Source: Myxococcales bacterium
GTDB taxonomy: Bacteria > Myxococcota_A > Polyangia > Polyangiales > Polyangiaceae
Direction of reading: 5' to 3'
Assembly (NCBI GenBank): GCA_012514535.1
Contig: JAAZAA010000060.1
Location: 45,285 to 109,284, forward strand
Length of the DNA stretch: 64,000 nt
Notes under the pieces: generated by a model
Told to the model about the DNA's origin: nothing
Database searches by the model: none
Seen by the model: only the letters and a program-made list of their open reading frames with translations
Shown here: positions 22,734 through 35,214 of the stretch, piece by piece
Numbering within the stretch: the first letter of the stretch is position 1
Layout of the letters: every line of letters starts with the position of its first letter
Translations under genes and position numbers: made by a program

Positions 22734-22915
22734 GCGATCAGGGATGAGCACCAGTGATGAGCACCAGCCCGGCTGAGAGGAGCACGGCGAGCAGCGCCGT
22801 GGCTCCACGGACAGGTGGAGGGGGGATCCGGGGCGGGTGGTGCGCCGCTCTCCCCTCGCGTCGGGCAACCTCCGGTTCCTCGTCCCCTGCACGGTCACCG
22901 CTCGGGTAAGGGGTC

Positions 22916-25900
22916 GTGTCCAGAGGAGCTCGACTCGTCGGGGCGTTCTGCTTCGGGGCGCTGGCGGTGTCGGCCTGCGGCGAGCCGGGACAGGGCGGCG
23001 CGCGCCGGCCACCGCTCATGACGGGCTCCGACTGGAGCGCCCCACGTGTCGTCGAGCCCGTGCGCTGGATTTTCCATCCGTCGACGCGGACGGAGGCCAA
23101 CGCTCGACTCAAGCTCGACGGGCAGCGGGAGCTCGCCGTCGGGGAAGGCGGAGAGCGTTGGCTCGAAGGCGAGGGCGCGCACGCCGACGTCGCACCGTTC
23201 GTCGCACCCGAGCCCCTCATCGATCTGGGGCGAACCGGCGATCGTTATGCATTCGTGGGCGCGTCGGGCCTCGTGTACCTCGCCGACGAGCCGCTGGGGC
23301 CCTTCGTGGACGTGCGACGCCCTCCCCGCCCGTTCGTCTCGGCGACGTCCCAGGACGGTGTGCTCGCGGGCGTGGAGCCCTCCGGCGGGCTCTGGATCGG
23401 CGCAGACTGGGGGGCGCGCTGGGAGGCCGCGGAGGTGCCGAACGCCCGCTTCGTCGAGGTGGCTCTCGGGGCACGGGGAACGGGTCTGGCCCTCGCCATC
23501 CCCGAGGCTTGGTGGGCGAGCGCGGATGGGGGCAGGAGCTGGCGTCCTACGGAGCTGCCGCCGCTGGGCGCTCGCCGGATCGGACGGGACGCCGCGGGCG
23601 ATCTCGTCGTCGAGGGCCTGTTCCGCCGCGCACGCTACGAACAGGGGCGCTGGATGGATCCGGCGCCAGCGCGATCTCGACCGACTCGGCCGTCCCCGAC
23701 GACGCAGGTGGAGCCCGCCCCCGACGCGGCGCCCTCCCCCGACGCGGCGCCCTCCCCCGACGCGGCGCGAGTGCAAGAGGGTCGGGCGGTCCTCGATGAC
23801 GCGGGCTACTTTGCCCTGGAGCTCGTGACGGAGGAGGGGGAGCGAGCGTGGCGCGTCCTGTCGGGTCCCCTGGGCGCGCGCCTGCAGGAGCGCACTGCGG
23901 CGACCTTGCCCGTCACGGAATGCCGCGACGTGCGCGTCGCGCGGCGCGGGGAGCACGTCGCCGTCCTCTGCGGCTCGAAGGGCGCCGAGCACACCAGCGC
24001 CCTGGTTCGCCTCTACGTCAGCGAGGACGCGGGGGCGACCTTCCAGCGCCAGAAGCTCTCGCTGCGGGGGGGATGGAGTGAGCTGAGGCTCGCCATCGGA
24101 CCGCGCGGCGCGGTCGTGCTCTCCGGGATCTGTCCGCCCCATCGAACGGAGCTCGGCTGCGCGCCCCGCGGGGTGTATCGCTTGTCGAAGGGGAGCAAGG
24201 AGCTCGAGCCGTTGGCGCTCCCGGGGCTGGGGCGGGTGGACGCGGTCGCGGTGGGGCCTCGCGATCGCCTCTACGTCGTCGGAGCTCGGGACAAGGATCA
24301 GCGCCTCAGCCTCTACGCGTCCCTGGATGACGGGCGATCGTTTCAGATCCGGGATCTGGAGATGGGGGACGGCGGCGCAGGGGATCGGCGTCACGGGAGC
24401 GAGCGGTTCGTGCCGCGGCTGACGATCGACGAGGATGGCGCGATCGCCGTGGTGGTGCGGACCTCGAACGGCTGGGGCCATGTCGCGCTGGATCCGGAGG
24501 GACACGTGCTCTCCCGCGGAGCACCGCCGCCTCCCGCGCGCTCCGTCGCCGCCGTGGGCCTCAAGGCGCTGGCGCTCGATCCGGCGCGCCCGAGCCTCTG
24601 GGAGTCCCTGGACGGGGGGAGCAGCTGGGAGGTCGTGCCGCTGCCGCGGCCCCCTTGCTCGAGCGAGGGGCAGCGCGGATCGTCGAGCGACGAGCCCTGT
24701 GAGGTAGAGATGAGCTGCTCTCCCGCGGGGTGCCTCTTCGGGGCGACCTTGTCTCGCCTCGGCTGGGACGCAGAGGCGGAGTCGGGTCGCATCGGCGATC
24801 CGCGCGCCATCCCGAGCGGGCCGGCGACTCCGCCCGCTCCGAGGACGCCGATCGCCTGTGTACTGGGCGGTGAGCCTTGGCAGACCTTGGAGGGCGTGAG
24901 CGGCGTGCCCGGTGCCGCGGACGCGGTCGTGGGGCGCACGACGTGGTTCGCGGTGGGCGCGGATTTCGAGACCGGCGCGGTCTGGGCGCTGCACGCTTAC
25001 GAGGGCGGGCGGAGCGTGCGACGCCAGCAGATGTTCGGGCCGCTCGCCGAGCCGACGCGCCATGCGCTCGCGGTGGTCGATCAGGTCGAGGGGAGCGCTG
25101 CGCTGCGCTACCGGGTTCCTCACAGTTCCCGCGGCGAGAAGGAGATCACCGCGGTGGAGGTGGCGTGGGACAACCGCTTCCAGGATCTGGTGGGGCACGC
25201 CAAGATCGCGGGAACGTTCGAGCCCAGCCCCGGGGACTACCGCAACCACGCGCCGCGCACCCTGCTCGCGCAGCCGGCGCTGCTGAGCATCGCGGGGCGC
25301 GGCGTGCACGTGCGGCTCCACGCGTCGCCCCAGGATCGCCAACCGACCTACTACACCGAGGGGAAGACGGTGGAGACCCTCCCGGCGGTGCCGTGGCCCG
25401 CGTCCCGGGAGTCGCGGCGCACCGAGATGGTCCGCGTCGGCGCGCGGTCCCTCCCCATTGGCTTCCATGGGGGCGGTCAGTGGCTCTCCTGGGCCCGTCC
25501 CAGCGCGGACGCAGCGGGCGCGTCGGGCGACGCTCGTTGGAGCTGGGGAGCGTCTCTCCTCGGCCTGCCCCGACCTCCAGCCGGCTTTGGCCAGGCGGTG
25601 TCCATCACCTACTCCGGGCTCACCCCTTCCCTCGCCGTGGTGCAGGTGGGGCCGGGAGGGGGCTGGTGGCACGCCTACACGTTGCCGTTTCAGTGGGGGG
25701 CGGTGCCGTTCGGGGAGCCCGCACCCGCGCCGCTGCTCGCCGACCTCCCGGATCCTCCGCCGCCCTGTGGCGCCTCCGAGCGACGAGATTCGCCGCGGGT
25801 GGTCGCGCCTTCCGTCCCCGGAGAGGCCTACACCGTGTTGGTGACGGACACCGTGGATCCACCCCAGGTGCTGACGACGGCGCGCGCCGTGCTGCATGGA

Positions 25901-26179
25901 ACCCCCGATCGACCTTGTCTGGCCGCCTTCGAGGCGAGCGGTGCGAGCGCTCGTGACCCGCGGGCCTCGCGCTCCACGTCCACCACGAGCGGCTGGGACA
26001 CGACGAGCGATCGCTTCTTCGCCGTCCTCCCCGCGGCGGACCTCGGCCACGCCTGGCTCTTCCGGGAGGTCACCGCCTCGCACTGGGAGCGCACGATCCA
26101 CGCGCGTCCCATGAGCTGTCGCTTCGACGCGAGCGCGGTGATCCCGCCAGAGCTCTCCGGGAGGGGCGTCGCGCCCTGA
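22916..26179 (+). CDS. Large lipoprotein with BNR/Asp-box (sialidase-type propeller) repeats
   Basis: Lipobox LAVSAC; repeated Asp-box-like SADGGRSW, SEDAGATF, SLDDGRSF, SLDGGSSW. Confidence 0.75.
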   Translation: MSRGARLVGAFCFGALAVSACGEPGQGGARRPPLMTGSDWSAPRVVEPVRWIFHPSTRTEANARLKLDGQRELAVGEGGERWLEGEGAHADVAPFVAPEPLIDLGRTGDRYAFVGASGLVYLADEPLGPFVDVRRPPRPFVSATSQDGVLAGVEPSGGLWIGADWGARWEAAEVPNARFVEVALGARGTGLALAIPEAWWASADGGRSWRPTELPPLGARRIGRDAAGDLVVEGLFRRARYEQGRWMDPAPARSRPTRPSPTTQVEPAPDAAPSPDAAPSPDAARVQEGRAVLDDAGYFALELVTEEGERAWRVLSGPLGARLQERTAATLPVTECRDVRVARRGEHVAVLCGSKGAEHTSALVRLYVSEDAGATFQRQKLSLRGGWSELRLAIGPRGAVVLSGICPPHRTELGCAPRGVYRLSKGSKELEPLALPGLGRVDAVAVGPRDRLYVVGARDKDQRLSLYASLDDGRSFQIRDLEMGDGGAGDRRHGSERFVPRLTIDEDGAIAVVVRTSNGWGHVALDPEGHVLSRGAPPPPARSVAAVGLKALALDPARPSLWESLDGGSSWEVVPLPRPPCSSEGQRGSSSDEPCEVEMSCSPAGCLFGATLSRLGWDAEAESGRIGDPRAIPSGPATPPAPRTPIACVLGGEPWQTLEGVSGVPGAADAVVGRTTWFAVGADFETGAVWALHAYEGGRSVRRQQMFGPLAEPTRHALAVVDQVEGSAALRYRVPHSSRGEKEITAVEVAWDNRFQDLVGHAKIAGTFEPSPGDYRNHAPRTLLAQPALLSIAGRGVHVRLHASPQDRQPTYYTEGKTVETLPAVPWPASRESRRTEMVRVGARSLPIGFHGGGQWLSWARPSADAAGASGDARWSWGASLLGLPRPPAGFGQAVSITYSGLTPSLAVVQVGPGGGWWHAYTLPFQWGAVPFGEPAPAPLLADLPDPPPPCGASERRDSPRVVAPSVPGEAYTVLVTDTVDPPQVLTTARAVLHGTPDRPCLAAFEASGASARDPRASRSTSTTSGWDTTSDRFFAVLPAADLGHAWLFREVTASHWERTIHARPMSCRFDASAVIPPELSGRGVAP

Positions 26180-26252
26180 GCGAAGCCTGGGGCGCAGGGT
26201 GCGGCGCTCCGTGAGCTCTCGGGCCTTTGTCGATACCGCCCGCGTCCCGGGG

Positions 26253-26403
26253 GCCGCACTGCGCGGTGCCCGGGCTGCGCATCGAGCGCTGCGCGGTGCT
26301 CCGGGTTGCGCGCTGCGCGGTGCTCCGGGTTGCGCGCTACGCCGTGTTCCGGGTTGCGCGCTGCGCGGTGCTCCGGGGTGCGCGCTACGCTGGGGTCCCG
26401 GGG
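26253..26403. repeat. 24-bp tandem repeat array (consensus GCGCGCTGCGCGGTGCTCCGGGTT)
   Basis: Consecutive 24-mers GCGCGCTGCGCGGTGCTCCGGGTT / GCGCGCTACGCCGTGTTCCGGGTT / GCGCGCTGCGCGGTGCTCCGGGGT / GCGCGCTACGCTGGGGTCCCGGGG between convergent genes. Confidence 0.9.
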
Positions 26404-28012: not shown

Positions 28013-28447
28013 TCAGCCCCCGACGCGGGCCTTGACGTCCGCGTAGCTGCGGCCCGACGGCGCGCCCGTCTCCACCTCGCGCGTGCCGTCCTTCCAACCT
28101 GGAACCGGACGCCCGAAGGGGTCGCGCTTGCCCTCGAAGCCCGCGCTCATGTCGCAGAGCTCGACGAAGCCCGCCTGCTTCAGGGTGGCGGTGGCCTTCG
28201 CGGAGCGCCCTCCCATCTTGCAGCCGACGACCAGCTTGGCGTCCTTCGGGAAGAGGCCCTCCATCACCCGCAGGAAGTCCGGGTTGGGCACCATGCCAGC
28301 AGGACCCTGGTGGCTGATGGGCACGTTGAGCGCCCCCGGTACGTGTCCCGCTTCGAACTCGGGCTCGCTCCGCACGTCCACGTAGGTGTAGCCCGCCTGG
28401 AGGAGATCCGCCGTCTCCTCGGGGGAGACGATCTTGACGTCGGTCAT
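28013..28447 (-). CDS. Rhodanese-like domain protein
   Basis: YVDVRSEPEFEAGHVPGALNVP; active-site loop VVGCKMGGRSAKA. Confidence 0.9.
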   Translation of the reverse strand: MTDVKIVSPEETADLLQAGYTYVDVRSEPEFEAGHVPGALNVPISHQGPAGMVPNPDFLRVMEGLFPKDAKLVVGCKMGGRSAKATATLKQAGFVELCDMSAGFEGKRDPFGRPVPGWKDGTREVETGAPSGRSYADVKARVGG

Positions 28448-28530
28448 GGTCCTGTTCCTTTCGCGACCAAAGTTAGTCGGCGCTCGGGATCTGCGCCAGA
28501 CGGGGGCGTCACACAAGGGCCGCGGTGGAC

Positions 28531-28600: not shown

Positions 28601-30232
28601 TCAGAGGGCGTGTTTGCGGAGCGCGCGGATGATGGTGGTGCGCTCGTCCGTCGCGGGCGGCGCGAAGGAGCGCCACCAGCTGGCCGCGTCCTCCGGCGTC
28701 CACTGGTTGGCGCAAGCGAGGCGCTCCAGGGCCGCCTGGAGCTCCCTCACGCTCTGGAAACGCTTGGCGGGATCCTTCTCGAGGAGCCGCATCACCACCG
28801 CCTCCAGATCCGCGGGTACTGGCCCGGTGGCCACTCGTGAGGGGCGCGGGGGCGCCTCGCTCGCGTGAGCGACGGCCAGCGCCAGGGGGCTCTTCTTCTC
28901 GAAGACCGCGCGCCCGGTGATGAGGAAGAACATCACGCAGCCGAGCTGGTAGAGGTCTGCGCGGTAGTCGACGGTTTCCCCTGCGGCCTGCTCCGCGGGC
29001 ATGTACGCCGGCGTGCCGTAGAGGAACCCGTCTTGGGAGAGCGTCGTGAGTCCGCCGCCCGCTTCCGACGTCTCGTGGGCGGACACCATGCCGAAGTCCA
29101 GCACCTTGAGGAAATCGCGGGTCAATCCCCGCCGCACGACGAACAAGTTGCTCGGCTTGATGTCCCGGTGGGCGATACCGAGCTCGTGCGCCTCGCCGAT
29201 GGAGTCACAGGCCTGGCGCATCAGGTGCACGACTCGGGCCGGGTGCAGCGGGCCGCGCTCCTCGACGAGCCTCTGCAGGTCGAATCCCGTGAGCAGCTCC
29301 ATGACGTAGTAGGGAGTTCCCTGCTGTCCGATGCCGAAGTCATAGAGGCTCACCGTGTGCTCCGAGGACAGCAGCGCCGTGGCCTGGGCCTCGCGCTCGA
29401 AGCGCACCAAGAAGCTGCGGCTCGTGCTGGACGGAGCGAGGAGCTTCACCGCGGCGGGTCTTGCGAGCAGCCGATGTCGCCCCTCCCACACCTCGCCCGC
29501 TCCCCCGGCGCCGAGCTTGCGCACGAGACGGTAACCGCCGATGTCGCGCGCGAGATCGGTCCGTGACCAGGAGCTCACCCGGGCAGAGACGAGGCCCACG
29601 GCCAGCGCCGAGGCGGTCCCGAGGGCGGAGAGCGCGAGGTCGCGGGAGCTCGTATCCAGCAGACCCAGTAGCTGGAGGAGCGCCGCGGTCGCAGGCTGCG
29701 CGGCGGCTGCCAAGGAGACCACCGCGATCGCCCACCGAAAGGAGAGGGGGATCACGATGGGCAAGAGCACGACGAGGAGCGCCGCCGGTGTGATTTGTGT
29801 CACTCCGCCGCCGGGGTGCGCGTGCCAGTGCAAGGCCAGCGCCCACGCCAGCGCGACGCTGACGCTCGCGAAGCGCCGCAGCCCCGCTTCCGCGGATCCC
29901 GCGTCGAGCTTCGACATCGCGACGAGCGCCAGCTGGAGCACCAACACCGCGAGCGCCGGCCAGGGCCCGAGGGGGCTCTCGCCGTGCATCACGCGCAGCA
30001 TGCCCAGATGCGCGAGGGTCAGCGGCAACAGGGCCAGGGCGATGAGGCCAGCCCTGCGTTGCGCCAGGCGCAGGGAGGATGACACGAAGCCGCGGCGCCG
30101 CGGTAACACACGTCGCTCGGCGACGACCCGCACCCGCCGGGGATCCGTATCCACGGGACGGGGGGAGCGCGACGTGAGCCACGGGCGGCGAGCGAGCGCC
30201 CGATCGAGGGAGTCTCTCCAAGCAATTCCCAC
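28601..30232 (-). CDS. Membrane Ser/Thr protein kinase (TM module followed by C-terminal kinase domain)
   Basis: Multiple hydrophobic helices, then GGYRLVRKLGAGGAGEVWEG, AVKLL, IAHRDIKPSNLF, KVLDFGM, GTPAYMPAEQ; start (GTG) uncertain. Confidence 0.88.
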   Translation of the reverse strand: MGIAWRDSLDRALARRPWLTSRSPRPVDTDPRRVRVVAERRVLPRRRGFVSSSLRLAQRRAGLIALALLPLTLAHLGMLRVMHGESPLGPWPALAVLVLQLALVAMSKLDAGSAEAGLRRFASVSVALAWALALHWHAHPGGGVTQITPAALLVVLLPIVIPLSFRWAIAVVSLAAAAQPATAALLQLLGLLDTSSRDLALSALGTASALAVGLVSARVSSWSRTDLARDIGGYRLVRKLGAGGAGEVWEGRHRLLARPAAVKLLAPSSTSRSFLVRFEREAQATALLSSEHTVSLYDFGIGQQGTPYYVMELLTGFDLQRLVEERGPLHPARVVHLMRQACDSIGEAHELGIAHRDIKPSNLFVVRRGLTRDFLKVLDFGMVSAHETSEAGGGLTTLSQDGFLYGTPAYMPAEQAAGETVDYRADLYQLGCVMFFLITGRAVFEKKSPLALAVAHASEAPPRPSRVATGPVPADLEAVVMRLLEKDPAKRFQSVRELQAALERLACANQWTPEDAASWWRSFAPPATDERTTIIRALRKHAL

Positions 30233-30407
30233 CCGATACCCTAGCGCTCTAACGCCTATGGTGCAGCGCTCGCGGGAGCGGAGGTGCGGCGCGATCGAGC
30301 TAGCGCGCGTCAGCCGGATCCGAACGAAGCAGGGCGGGCAAGATTGATTGGATCGGTCATCGATGGGGTGCGACGCCGCGCTTCCGCGGTGACCCGAGCG
30401 GTCCGCC

Positions 30408-33400
30408 ATGTCGACATCTCGTCCGTTCGTCGCGCCACACCTGGGGGCCGAGGGAGTCGCCGGGCAGCGGCGGCGCAAGCGACAGCCTACGAGTCGCCTC
30501 CCGCGGCGGGCGCTGTCACTCGTCAGGCAGCGCCTGTTCTTGGGCGCCACGCTGATGGCGGGGCTCACGCTCGGCAACGGTGCCCTCTGGCTGCTGACCC
30601 AGCCCTCCCTGCGAGTCCCGCCGCGCTTGGGGGACGTGCTGGGGCTCATGCTGTTCGCTCTGGTGCTCGACGGGGCGATGTTGCGGGTCAGCCGAGGCCG
30701 ACGCCTCGGTGACGAGGCGATGGTCTCCTTCGGCCTCGCCTATCACCTGCTGCGCACCTTCGCGGTGGCCCTCTACTCCGTGCGGCTCGAGGTGCTGCTC
30801 GGCTGGGAGCCCTCCGCCGTCACGTTCGCGAGCGCGACCATCGCGACCTTCCCGCTCCTCGTCCCGACGCCGCCGCTCAAGACCTTGGTGGTCTCGCTCG
30901 CGGCGGGTGCGATGCCTCCGCTGGTGCTCTGGCTCCACGGAGCATCGCTGCCGCTCCTGGGGGAGGGGATCGCCTTCGCCGCGGTGTCGGTCGCCCTCGC
31001 GGTATTTTGCGGTCAAGTCGCCTACGGGCTCTCCGCCGCCGTGGCGCGCAGCGACGAGCTGGGCGCTTACCGGTTGATTGAGCGTCTCTCGCAAGGGAGC
31101 GCCGGAGCCCTGTGGCGAGCGGAGCATCGTCTCCTCGCCCGCCCCACCGCCGTGAAGATCATTCGCCCACCGTGGCTCGTGGGGCGGCGCTTCGTCCAGC
31201 ACCTCGAGCGCTTTCGACGCGAGGCCCAGATCGCGACGCGGCTGACGTCCCCCCACTCCGTCACGGTCTACGACCACGGGATCGCGGACGACGGCTCGTT
31301 CTTCTATGCGCGAGAGTTCCTGGACGGCGAGACCCTCGAGCAGCGGGTGCACCGCGAAGGTCCCCTGCCACCCCTCGACGTCGTACGTATCGCCCTGCAG
31401 GTGTGCGACTCGCTGGGGGAGGCTCACCAGCTCGGCCTGGCCCATCGTCGCTTGAGCGCGCGGCAGATTTTTCTGTGCCGCGTCGGAGCCCGTGACGACT
31501 TCGTCAAGGTCCTCGACTTCGGCTTGATCGACCTCGAACAACGCCTCGAGCGGGACGCGGTGCCGCGGACGGAGGGGCGCCGCGTGTGTGGCGTCGAGGA
31601 CTGCCTCGCGCCGGAGACCGTCGCCCGCGGGGTGGCGGACGCTCGCTCGGATCAATACCAGTTGGGGTGCGTGCTCCAGTACCTGCTGACGGGGCGGAGC
31701 GGGCCTCCGTCCGCGCATCGCGGAGCACTGGAGGGAGTCGCGCCGTCGGCTTGGCTGCACCTCCTCGAGCGCAGCGTGGCGGAGGAACCCGCACGGCGCT
31801 TCCCGTCGATCGACGCCTTCGCCGCGGCGCTCCGGGACCTCTTGCGCACGCAACTGCGCGGGTCGACGACGCCTGCGCAGCTCGTGCCTCTCGTCTCCAG
31901 CTTCGAGCCCTCCTTCGAGACGCTCTTCGAGCCGCCCGAGGGCGTCGCCTCGGGCCCGGACGAGCGGGGCACGTCGCGCTCCAGCGCCCGGAGCGTCGAC
32001 CGTGGGACCTCGCCGCGCACCGCGGAGCTCAGCGCTCGTTCGCGGGCCGTGGCGCGAGCGATGGACGTCTCCCGGCATCGCCTCGAGCGGTTCGCGGGGC
32101 TCCTGGCGGCGGCGACGGTGCTGAGCCTGCCGATCCTGGCGTTCGTCGACCCGTACGAGCTCTCCGCCGTCGTCGCGCTCACCGGCCTCTTGGGGATCTC
32201 CTTCGCCTTGGATGTCGTCCTGGTGTTGGCGGCGCGCGATCGCCACCTCGGCGGCGAGGCGGTCATCCGGCTGGGGGCCGTGTACTTCGTCTTGCGGTCT
32301 TCTTTGCTGACGTCCACCGCGATGGTGTTGGGCGACCTGCTCGGGACGGGCCCGGCGCGCATGTCGTTCGGCCTGGTGCTCCTCGTGATCGCGCCCTTCC
32401 TCCTCGCCGCGCGGCCCGCGCAGATCCTGATCGTCGCGCTGCTCGGTGCCCTCGCTCACCCCGTGGCCCTGCTGACGTCGGCGAGCCCCGTGGGCACCAG
32501 CGAGCTGATCGCGGGCATGATCGACGCGGTCACGGTGGTGGTCGGCGCCTATGCGTGTGCGCGTCTGGTGGAGGCGCTGCGCCGCTCCGTGACCCGGGAC
32601 ACCTACGGCGTCTATCGACTCACGCGGCTCCTGGCCAAGGGCGCGATGGGGGAGGTGTGGCGGGCGGAACACGACCTCCTGGCCCGACCAGCGGCCATCA
32701 AGCTGATCGCACCCGGCACGGTGCGCCGCCCCGGAGGTGCCGCGCTCTCCGCTCGCTTCGAGCGGGAGGCGCGAGTGACGGCGCGGTTGACGTCGCCGCA
32801 TACCGTCACCCTGTACGACTACGGTGTCTCCGAAGACGGCACCTACTACTACGTGATGGAGCTGCTCGAAGGTCAGGATCTGCAGGACTTCGTGGAGAGT
32901 CATGGGCCGCTGCCGTGGCAGCAGGCGTTGCTCGTCGCTCTGGAGATCTGCGACTCGCTCGTCGAGGCCCACGCCCTGGGCCTCGTGCACCGCGATCTGA
33001 AGCCGGCCAACGTCTTTTTGGCGCGAATCGGGCGCGATCCACAGTTCGTCAAAGTGCTCGATTTCGGTCTGGCCGAGCTCGAGAGCCACATGCGGGGGGA
33101 CGACGACCGACACCCCCGCGTGGTGGGCACGCCGGGGTACATCCCGCCCGAGACGCTGCTGGAGCAGGGCGGGGACGCGCGCTCCGATCTGTATCAGCTC
33201 GGTTGTGTCCTCTTCTATCTCCTCACGGGCCGCCTCGTGTTCGAGCGCCCTTCGGTCACCGCGCTCGCGGTGGCGCACGTTCGCGAGGACCCGCCGCCCG
33301 TGTCCGAGGCGGCAGGGGTGGTCGTCCCCGTGGAGCTGGAGGAGGTCATCGCGCGCTGCCTGGAGAAATCGCCGGAGGATCGGTTCGCCTCGGCGGAGGA

Positions 33401-33533
33401 GCTGCAGCGAGCGTTGTGCGCGGTGCTGGTCGCGTGGGGACCCGCCTGGCTTCGTGGAGGGGTCTCTCCGGACATTCTCCCGCTCGCCTTCGAACCAGGT
33501 GCGCAGGCGTGGAGCGCGCCTCGGACTCTGTGA
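30408..33533 (+). CDS. Tandem two-module membrane protein: TM-pseudokinase-TM-Ser/Thr kinase
   Basis: First kinase LAHRRLSARQIFL (HRD Asp lost), second LVHRDLKPANVFL (intact); both preceded by homologous multi-TM segments (RRLGDEAMVSFGLAYHLLR / RHLGGEAVIRLGAVYFVLR). Confidence 0.92.
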   Translation: MSTSRPFVAPHLGAEGVAGQRRRKRQPTSRLPRRALSLVRQRLFLGATLMAGLTLGNGALWLLTQPSLRVPPRLGDVLGLMLFALVLDGAMLRVSRGRRLGDEAMVSFGLAYHLLRTFAVALYSVRLEVLLGWEPSAVTFASATIATFPLLVPTPPLKTLVVSLAAGAMPPLVLWLHGASLPLLGEGIAFAAVSVALAVFCGQVAYGLSAAVARSDELGAYRLIERLSQGSAGALWRAEHRLLARPTAVKIIRPPWLVGRRFVQHLERFRREAQIATRLTSPHSVTVYDHGIADDGSFFYAREFLDGETLEQRVHREGPLPPLDVVRIALQVCDSLGEAHQLGLAHRRLSARQIFLCRVGARDDFVKVLDFGLIDLEQRLERDAVPRTEGRRVCGVEDCLAPETVARGVADARSDQYQLGCVLQYLLTGRSGPPSAHRGALEGVAPSAWLHLLERSVAEEPARRFPSIDAFAAALRDLLRTQLRGSTTPAQLVPLVSSFEPSFETLFEPPEGVASGPDERGTSRSSARSVDRGTSPRTAELSARSRAVARAMDVSRHRLERFAGLLAAATVLSLPILAFVDPYELSAVVALTGLLGISFALDVVLVLAARDRHLGGEAVIRLGAVYFVLRSSLLTSTAMVLGDLLGTGPARMSFGLVLLVIAPFLLAARPAQILIVALLGALAHPVALLTSASPVGTSELIAGMIDAVTVVVGAYACARLVEALRRSVTRDTYGVYRLTRLLAKGAMGEVWRAEHDLLARPAAIKLIAPGTVRRPGGAALSARFEREARVTARLTSPHTVTLYDYGVSEDGTYYYVMELLEGQDLQDFVESHGPLPWQQALLVALEICDSLVEAHALGLVHRDLKPANVFLARIGRDPQFVKVLDFGLAELESHMRGDDDRHPRVVGTPGYIPPETLLEQGGDARSDLYQLGCVLFYLLTGRLVFERPSVTALAVAHVREDPPPVSEAAGVVVPVELEEVIARCLEKSPEDRFASAEELQRALCAVLVAWGPAWLRGGVSPDILPLAFEPGAQAWSAPRTL

Positions 33534-33534
33534 T

Positions 33535-35214
33535 ATGGATCGTCCGGAAGACGTGTCGGATTACCTCGATTCGGATACCGTGCAGTTGGTGCCGCTCGGA
33601 GGGCTGGGTGAAATAGGCATGAACTGCCTGGCCATCGAGCACCGCGACGGCGTGTTGGTCGTGGACTCCGGCATCGGGTTTCCCCAGGACGATCTCGGCG
33701 TGCAGTTGGAGCACCCCGACTTCTCTTGGCTGATCGAGCGACGCGAACGTGTGAGCGGTGTGTTCGTCACCCACGGGCACGAGGATCACATCGGCGCGGT
33801 ACCGCACCTGTTGCGACACCTGGGGAGGGACGTCCCTGTGTTCGCGCCTCCCCACGCGGTGCAGCTGCTCCAGTCCCGCTTCGACGAGCACGAGCTCGAG
33901 TGGGACCTGCTGGTGGAGGCGCTGCCCAAGAACCGCTATCCCGTGGGCCCGTTCGAAATCGAGCCCGTGCGCGTGTCCCACTCGATCATCGACGCCACCG
34001 GGTTGGCGATCCGCACTCCCGCGGGGCTCGTGGTGCACACGGGGGACTTCGACATGGATCCCAGTCAGCCCGCGGGGGAGCCGATCGACGCGGAGCGGTT
34101 CCAGGAGCTCGGAGACGAGGGGGTGCGCCTGCTCCTCAGCGACAGCACGAACGTGGACACCGAGCAACGGCCCGGCTCCGAGGACTCGGTGGCGCGGGCC
34201 CTCGAGGAGCTCGTGCAGGGCGCCACGGGGCGGGTGGTGATCGCGCTGTTCGCGAGCAACATCCACCGCATGAAGATGCTGGGCGAGATCGCGCAGCGGA
34301 CGGGCCGGCGTTTGTGTCTCCTCGGGAGGAGCCTGGTGAAGCAGCAGGCCGCCGCCGCCGCGCTGGGCAGGATTTCCTGGCGCAGCGATCTCCTGGTCGC
34401 ACCGGAGCAGGTCGCGAGCGTCCCGGCTTCGAACCTCCTGGTGTTGGCGGGAGGGACCCAGGCAGAGCAAGGCTCGGCGATGCGACGCCTCGCCTCGGCG
34501 TCCCATCAACACCTTCAGCTGGAGCCGGGGGACGCGGTGGTCTTCTCGTCGCGCATCATCCCCGGCAACGATCGTCCCGTGCTCGAGATGGTGAACGACC
34601 TGCTGCGGCTGGGGGCGACCGTCCACACGCGGTTCTCGGATCCCGCAGTGCACACGAGCGGTCACGCGGGGCGCAGCGAGCAACGTCGGATGCTCCAATG
34701 GACCCGCCCGCAGAGCTTCCTGCCCGTCCACGGCACCCTGCACCACCTCCGCCGGCACGCGGCGCTCGCGCGGCAAGAGGGGGTACAGGACACCCTGGTC
34801 GTGGAGAACGGGACCCCCGTCATTCTGAGCGCCACGGGACCGCTCCGCGCAGGAACACCCGTGCGCCACGGGCGGGTGCGCGTGCTGTGGGGAGGGCACG
34901 CCCTCGAGGAGGAGACGCGGCGGCGACGGGTCGAGCTCGCGCGGAATGGCCTGGCGATGGTCACCGTCCAGGTCACTCGGAAACGTCGCCTCGTGGGTGC
35001 TCTAGCGGTGACCACCCGAGGCGTCCCCGTGGTGGACGAGGAACGGATGGCCCTGCAGCGGCTGCGGAGGGCGGCGGCCGAGGCCGTCGAGAGGAACCGC
35101 GACTACCGCATGGAGGGGCTCGAGGAGCCCATCCGCCGGGCGGTGCGCCGGGAGCTGTTCGAGCTGACGGGGACGCGCCCCGTGGTCGAAGTGCACGTGA
35201 TCGAACAAGACTGA
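33535..35214 (+). CDS. Ribonuclease J family metallo-beta-lactamase RNase
   Basis: PLGGLGEIGMNCLAIE, VTHGHEDHIGAVPHLL, HTGDFDMDP, LLSDSTNVD, FSSRIIPGND, SGHAGRSEQRRML, PVHGTLHHLRRHAALA. Confidence 0.92.
   Translation: MDRPEDVSDYLDSDTVQLVPLGGLGEIGMNCLAIEHRDGVLVVDSGIGFPQDDLGVQLEHPDFSWLIERRERVSGVFVTHGHEDHIGAVPHLLRHLGRDVPVFAPPHAVQLLQSRFDEHELEWDLLVEALPKNRYPVGPFEIEPVRVSHSIIDATGLAIRTPAGLVVHTGDFDMDPSQPAGEPIDAERFQELGDEGVRLLLSDSTNVDTEQRPGSEDSVARALEELVQGATGRVVIALFASNIHRMKMLGEIAQRTGRRLCLLGRSLVKQQAAAAALGRISWRSDLLVAPEQVASVPASNLLVLAGGTQAEQGSAMRRLASASHQHLQLEPGDAVVFSSRIIPGNDRPVLEMVNDLLRLGATVHTRFSDPAVHTSGHAGRSEQRRMLQWTRPQSFLPVHGTLHHLRRHAALARQEGVQDTLVVENGTPVILSATGPLRAGTPVRHGRVRVLWGGHALEEETRRRRVELARNGLAMVTVQVTRKRRLVGALAVTTRGVPVVDEERMALQRLRRAAAEAVERNRDYRMEGLEEPIRRAVRRELFELTGTRPVVEVHVIEQD

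Follow-up and report, generated by a model that had tools for sequence, protein, structure and literature searches.

Organization of the locus

We analysed a stretch of 64,000 nucleotides from a Myxococcales bacterium (the window) and found in it a gene encoding two successive units, each consisting of a membrane domain followed by a Hanks-type kinase domain (Table 1). This layout had been proposed in a first-pass annotation made from the sequence alone, and the 1041-aa ORF, the Pfam matches and the alignment of the two halves agree with it. We refer to the two copies as C1 and C2 and to the neighbouring kinase as NB; for analyses of the halves, the protein was cut at residue 520.

Table 1. 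Positions of genes and protein features at the tandem kinase locus
Feature	Position	Strand	Remarks and basis
Rhodanese-domain gene	28013..28516	-	Downstream of NB; direct RNase J neighbour in 17 related genomes
NB, single-unit membrane kinase of the same family	28601..30649	-	HRDIKPSN intact; head-to-head with the tandem gene
Tandem membrane pseudokinase-kinase gene	30408..33533	+	1041 aa plus stop; ORF, Pfam, half-versus-half alignment, codon-position GC
C1 membrane (input) domain, about six helices	30504..31061	+	aa 33-218; AlphaFold model, family profile
C1 pseudokinase domain	31062..31853	+	aa 219-482; alignment, profile, AlphaFold
Degenerate C1 catalytic loop, HRRLSARQ	31443..31466	+	aa 346-353; sequence
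Ser/Arg-rich linker joining the units	31920..32063	+	About aa 505-552; low pLDDT at 485-542, unbroken GC phase
C2 membrane domain, about six helices	32013..32606	+	aa 536-733; full-chain model, profile; departs from family consensus
C2 kinase domain	32607..33437	+	aa 734-1010; every catalytic motif intact; Pfam, alignment, profile
RNase J gene	33535..35214	+	Start 1 base after the tandem stop (TGA-T-ATG, 33531-33537)

The Pfam check that the annotation had suggested matched Pkinase (PF00069) twice in the protein (E = 8.8e-55) and also in the C1 half alone (63 bits, E = 3.9e-17); no other Pfam domain was matched in the tandem protein. C1 and C2 are 36% identical over 506 aligned columns (E = 2e-85), in the membrane and kinase parts alike. 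Because an alignment of this length, identity and significance extends over the membrane part, the duplication is not a chance resemblance. The codon-position GC pattern runs unbroken in one frame through C1, the linker and C2, which gives no indication of a frameshift or of two genes wrongly joined, and the coding signature of C1 is the same as that of C2.

NB is encoded head-to-head with the tandem gene at a distance of about 150–250 bp. Its longest ORF has 682 aa, and the GC profile places the true start probably near 30200–30280. On the other side, the RNase J gene is likely co-transcribed with the tandem gene, and the spacing between the stop and the start suggests that translation of the signalling kinase is coupled to that of the RNA-decay enzyme. 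This one-base spacing was not seen in the relatives examined.

We observed that the rhodanese and RNase J genes stand head to head in 17 related genomes, including both congeners, where their matches are at most ~230 bp apart and free of kinases; between these two genes, the window has NB and the tandem kinase. As the two flanking genes are adjacent and kinase-free in these relatives, the kinase module is probably a lineage-specific insertion. The tandem gene ends before RNase J and NB lies upstream of the rhodanese gene, each co-directional with its neighbour, and thus each flanking gene gained a kinase upstream. The flanking gene order is otherwise largely common to the window and one congener (G068). 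A kinase near RNase J in Sorangium-like genomes was considered as a positional orthologue and rejected, the closest one being ~19 kb off and the gene order unshared apart from a cyclophilin gene.

Elsewhere in the window, a protein of ~1087 aa without any Pfam match is encoded at 22910–26176 (+); in the congener, the corresponding place is taken by a counterpart of low conservation (28% identity). A short GC-rich tandem repeat, translated as ALRGAPGC repeats, separates this gene from a glycosyltransferase gene (26199–26400).

Sequence criteria class C1 as a pseudokinase

We compared the kinase domains with 27 non-redundant single units from other genomes. Relative to these, the catalytic loop of C1 carries the changes D348R, K350S, P351A and N353Q, so that the catalytic Asp, Lys and Asn are replaced, as the annotation had read from HRRLSARQ. 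The P+1 loop carries T396V and P397E (T-P to V-E), and the alpha-G segment, including its conserved F and H, is deleted. The residues retained in C1 are Y221, G230, K250, E272, H346-R347, D370-F371-G372, G395, P402-E403, D415 and R464, among them the ATP lysine (K250), the αC Glu (E272), the DFG (370–372), the APE and the αF Asp (D415). The motifs noted previously in C1 (PTAVKII, LDFGL and an APE within CLAPE) and in C2 (GAMGEVW, HRDLKPAN and DFG) were all present. However, the Gly-loop of C1 (LSQGSAG), which had also been taken as a mark of inactivity, is a weak one and was rejected, as C2 (LAKGAMG) and other, active kinases likewise have a loop without the first Gly.

Bacterial pseudokinases have been defined by the loss of at least one of the beta-3 Lys, the HRD Asp and the DFG Asp (PMC12599244). 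C1 has Arg (R348) in place of the HRD Asp, with the beta-3 Lys and the DFG intact, and is thus a pseudokinase by the usual sequence definition. The earlier reading of a pseudokinase with intact nucleotide-binding residues held in this respect, and from its residues, K250 and DFG included, C1 is predicted still to bind ATP.

When near-invariant positions were defined as kinase columns at least 93% conserved in the 27 reference units, C1 retained 41 of 61, C2 56 of 61 and NB 57 of 61. The losses of C1 group in the catalytic and substrate-facing segments. The catalytic loop, the P+1 loop and alpha-G together contain 11 such columns, of which C1 has lost 8, and the remaining 50 columns account for 12 losses (Fisher p = 0.0036); since the segments were picked once the list of losses was known, this value describes the pattern and is no clean test of it.

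Pseudokinases form a small minority in the source genome, as the Asp is missing from only 3 of the 76 kinase domains with a readable catalytic loop. Two further likely pseudokinases of this genome are encoded at L212:914–2113 (G000:C133) and L203:390–2351 (G000:C12); one of the two has K changed to R and HRGLAPHH with the DFG retained, the other has HRELNPER and GFS replacing DFG. The same genome also has a 939-aa ORF (L089:1343–4159, G000:C182) with two kinase domains and no preceding membrane domain, in which the HRD is intact in both domains (HRDLSPQN and HRDITPAN).

The membrane kinase family and the search for a second tandem

C1, C2 and NB belong to an unnamed family, here called the six-helix membrane kinases, which we defined by a membrane-domain profile together with a kinase domain. 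All three have the family layout, an N-terminal membrane domain and then the kinase, and match the profile with E values of 4.0e-47, 5.7e-35 and 3.2e-35, respectively, the profile having been built with these sequences included. Single units of about 520–640 aa were found across Polyangiaceae and other Myxococcota, and in Acidobacteriota, Gemmatimonadota and Eisenbacteria. Among 179 genomes of the order, 40 contain 57 copies of the membrane domain, and only in the tandem gene do two copies occur in one ORF. In a Pfam scan of 30 members, the membrane domain was not covered by any family and gave scattered single weak matches only; the idea of a known sensor domain in the membrane part was rejected on this ground.

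In an alignment of 38 units, the catalytic Asp and Asn are retained in all 37 units other than C1 (C2, NB and 35 from elsewhere), and the catalytic-loop Lys is Thr in one single unit (L014). Among these otherwise active membrane kinases, C1 represents a pseudokinase branch, joined to an active copy and known from one genome.

The first-pass annotation had suggested looking for homologues with the same order of membrane domain, pseudokinase, membrane domain and kinase. Queries with the full-length protein or its C1 half found no other tandem in 108 genomes of the family, 184 of the order, 144 of the class and 141 of the phylum. The membrane-domain profile revealed no second one in the 179 order genomes, and 80 loci of the GTDB contig set contained none either. 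One long ORF with a membrane-domain match (1593 aa, in G124) was rejected as a candidate because it consists of one ordinary unit preceded by an unrelated stretch of open frame. The tandem is real, and found so far in one metagenome-assembled genome only. A literature search, which reached few subscription papers, did not bring up a bacterial tandem kinase-pseudokinase.

Common origin and complementary divergence of the two copies

In the tree of the 38 units, C1 and C2 are sisters (support 98/92) and NB joins them at 91/71; the branch of C1 is longer than that of C2 (1.35 vs 0.93). Alternative groupings of C2 with NB and of C1 with NB were not rejected in the AU test (p = 0.30 and 0.08, respectively). 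From these data, C1, C2 and NB probably share a local origin. Of the intragenic duplication proposed earlier, the homology of C1 and C2 stood (36% identity, sisters at 98/92), and both an origin inside the gene and a fusion of local paralogues are compatible with the AU test. Another genome, G029 (L157:4921–8356, C212), has two single-unit family members in head-to-head orientation, each with its catalytic loop intact; this pair is not near the window pair in the tree.

Next, we scored the two parts of each unit with profiles built without sequences from the window. The membrane domains scored 91.0 (C1), 46.0 (C2) and 30.7 bits (NB), while 27 others ranged from 32 to 168 with a mean of 103. 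The kinase domains of C1 and C2 scored 233.9 and 340.4 bits, compared with 363–437 for the others. The C1 membrane domain also retains the family motif FPxxVPxPPxxTL and agrees with the consensus at 76% of 17 positions, the others doing so at 79% on average. By these measures, C1 combines a family-like membrane domain with a degenerate kinase, and C2 shows the reverse. The low membrane score of C2 is by itself no proof of a transfer of sensing, because the active-looking single-unit NB scores lower still, and it may reflect a trait of the lineage rather than a division of labour.

Structure models and the dimer surface

AlphaFold gave a well-formed kinase domain in the model of the C1 half, whose fold is confident (mean pLDDT 82.7, pTM 0.73). 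The model has membrane helices at 33–64, 74–96 and 102–130, short broken helices at 140–176 around the proline-rich family motif, and a single long helix (181–218) leading out of the membrane and into the kinase domain, whose activation loop is disordered. From the models and hydropathy, both units are predicted to cross the membrane about six times, with the kinase domains in the cytoplasm. The full-chain model, which had been proposed with the annotation, had low confidence (pLDDT 68, pTM 0.49), and no usable C1–C2 interface was found in it.

Both by structure (Foldseek) and by sequence, the closest solved match of the C1 kinase part is PknB. PknB can form back-to-back dimers, and this mode has been proposed to contribute allosterically to autophosphorylation (PMC6333020). 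In the alignment with PknB, the equivalents of its L33 and D76 are L243 and D289 in C1, and L758 and D804 in C2; the equivalent of R10 is not conserved in either copy. The two sites are Leu and Asp in all 38 membrane units, compared with 41 and 76, respectively, of 88 other kinases. In face-to-face kinase dimers, the alpha-G helix has a substrate-docking role; C1 lacks this helix, and therefore should not be the substrate-docking partner in such a dimer.

Comparison with known systems

The closest relatives of the tandem are the single-unit six-helix kinases, which have the same membrane and kinase domains as C1, C2 and NB. They differ in having one unit each with the catalytic Asp and Asn retained, whereas the tandem has two units, of which C1 is degenerate. 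Mycobacterium tuberculosis PknB, the nearest solved fold to C1, has one transmembrane helix and PASTA domains. It is one active kinase that dimerizes between separate chains, in contrast to the two units in one chain found here, and C1 has kept the equivalents of two of its dimer-surface residues.

The pseudokinase JH2 of the JAK family regulates JH1 in cis, and JAKs are eukaryotic tyrosine kinases without membrane domains. The tandem has the same order, with the pseudokinase N-terminal to the active kinase in one chain, but the likeness is one of layout only: Pfam finds no FERM-SH2 region, and the kinase is of the PknB type and not a tyrosine kinase. In plants, the WTK1/Yr15 tandem kinase-pseudokinase proteins also hold a kinase and a pseudokinase in one chain (PMC6170490); these are immune proteins that have no membrane domain in common with the tandem, and the origin is independent.

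Among bacterial pseudokinases, a 2025 review distinguishes seven families (ActPs1-3, GLW, CP1, DYD and DLHK); the word tandem does not occur in it (PMC12599244). By motif or layout, C1 falls outside all seven. As these families are described there, it is none of ActPs1, ActPs2, ActPs3 and GLW, in which the beta-3 Lys and the DFG are altered as well, since C1 retains K250 and DFG and its membrane domain is N-terminal. CP1 and DLHK are without transmembrane regions, and CP1 is linked to COG3899; C1 differs from both in its six-helix membrane domain and has no other Pfam domain. The DYD family, going by its heading in the review, has divergent ATP- and metal-binding motifs, and C1, with its ATP lysine and DFG intact, is not DYD. 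The MviN pseudokinase domain (ActPs3 family) is membrane-linked like C1, and forms a back-to-back dimer through L750 and D793, described as analogous to residues that other bacterial kinases need (PMC12599244). Unlike C1, it has lost the Lys and DFG, does not bind ATP and has no active kinase of its own kind in the same chain.

Bacterial pseudokinases have hardly been studied, and the known families mostly lack an ATP site or stand apart from an active relative. Here, what appears to be an active kinase and its recognisable inactive twin occur in one chain, beside a third active-looking unit, NB. This could be an independently evolved example of the layout seen in JAKs and plant tandem kinases. 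It would allow control by a pseudokinase in cis to be tested within a single bacterial protein, the non-duplicated family members serving as ready controls.

A model for the tandem kinase and its alternatives

We propose that the protein may be a receptor kinase with two covalently paired units. From its intact motifs, C2 would be an active Ser/Thr kinase; C1 would be unable to transfer phosphate in the normal way, and its residues still predict ATP binding. With the better-preserved membrane input domain held by C1, sensing may have shifted to C1 and catalysis to C2, a division that fits because C1 has the higher membrane score (91 vs 46) and C2 the higher kinase score (340 vs 234). C1 would then regulate C2 in cis. 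The likeliest mode is a permanent back-to-back contact, N-lobe to N-lobe and similar to that of PknB, through which C1 would stabilise the active state of C2 or release it, depending on signal and nucleotide. In this model the ATP binding and inactivity of C1, the activity of C2, the contact between them and the direction of regulation are all predicted. A kinase with its own inactive back-to-back partner is the best-supported picture, because the L/D surface is retained and C1 lacks alpha-G. We give roughly an even chance to this reading, in which C1 senses the signal, binds nucleotide and regulates C2 within the chain, possibly through a lasting back-to-back contact of the PknB kind. The wider proposal, that a JAK-like layout evolved independently when a duplication split sensing from catalysis and left C1 as an ATP-binding pseudokinase, both permanent dimer partner and switch, is possible and is put forward tentatively.

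It is less likely, though a serious alternative, that C1 is a decaying duplicate carried along by the in-frame C2, a by-product of the frequent duplication of kinases in myxobacteria that would have hardly any role of its own, except perhaps as a membrane anchor. Decay would explain the longer branch of C1 and the 20 of 61 near-invariant columns lost, but these losses are not random, the residues of the ATP site and the fold having been kept. The membrane domain of C1 is about average in its likeness to the family (76% vs 79%), and its coding signature equals that of C2. The open frame of C1 is no evidence of function, because C2 downstream keeps it open, and selection on C1 is not measurable because there is no orthologous tandem. 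That the congeners are without an orthologue of the tandem is in line with decay; on the other hand, the duplication is old (36% identity), with time enough to have deleted a useless segment of 500 aa.

We consider it improbable that C1 acts mainly in trans, as a scaffold or dominant partner for NB or other kinases of the family, the tandem and NB then making up a hetero-oligomeric receptor. NB lies head-to-head ~150–250 bp away, groups with C1 and C2 (91/71) and retains the same L and D residues of the dimer surface, all of which would suit such a receptor; however, the covalent fusion to C2 makes the cis contact the most concentrated one. G029 has a head-to-head pair of family kinases as well (L157), but this arrangement is not otherwise conserved.

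Very little probability attaches to C1 catalysing a different reaction or being a kinase with an unusual configuration. Its ATP-site residues, including the DFG Asp, are intact and alternative chemistry has been described in kinase-like folds (PMC12599244), but the known examples are in other families, the catalytic loop has lost its D, K, P and N all at once, and the model shows a disordered activation loop.

Finally, an assembly or base error joining two genes, which the annotation had named as a possible source of the ORF, is scarcely credible even though there is just one assembly, of metagenome type and split into 442 contigs, as the coding phase is constant across the join, the linker is coding in composition, and the gene order on both sides of the module is common to a congener.
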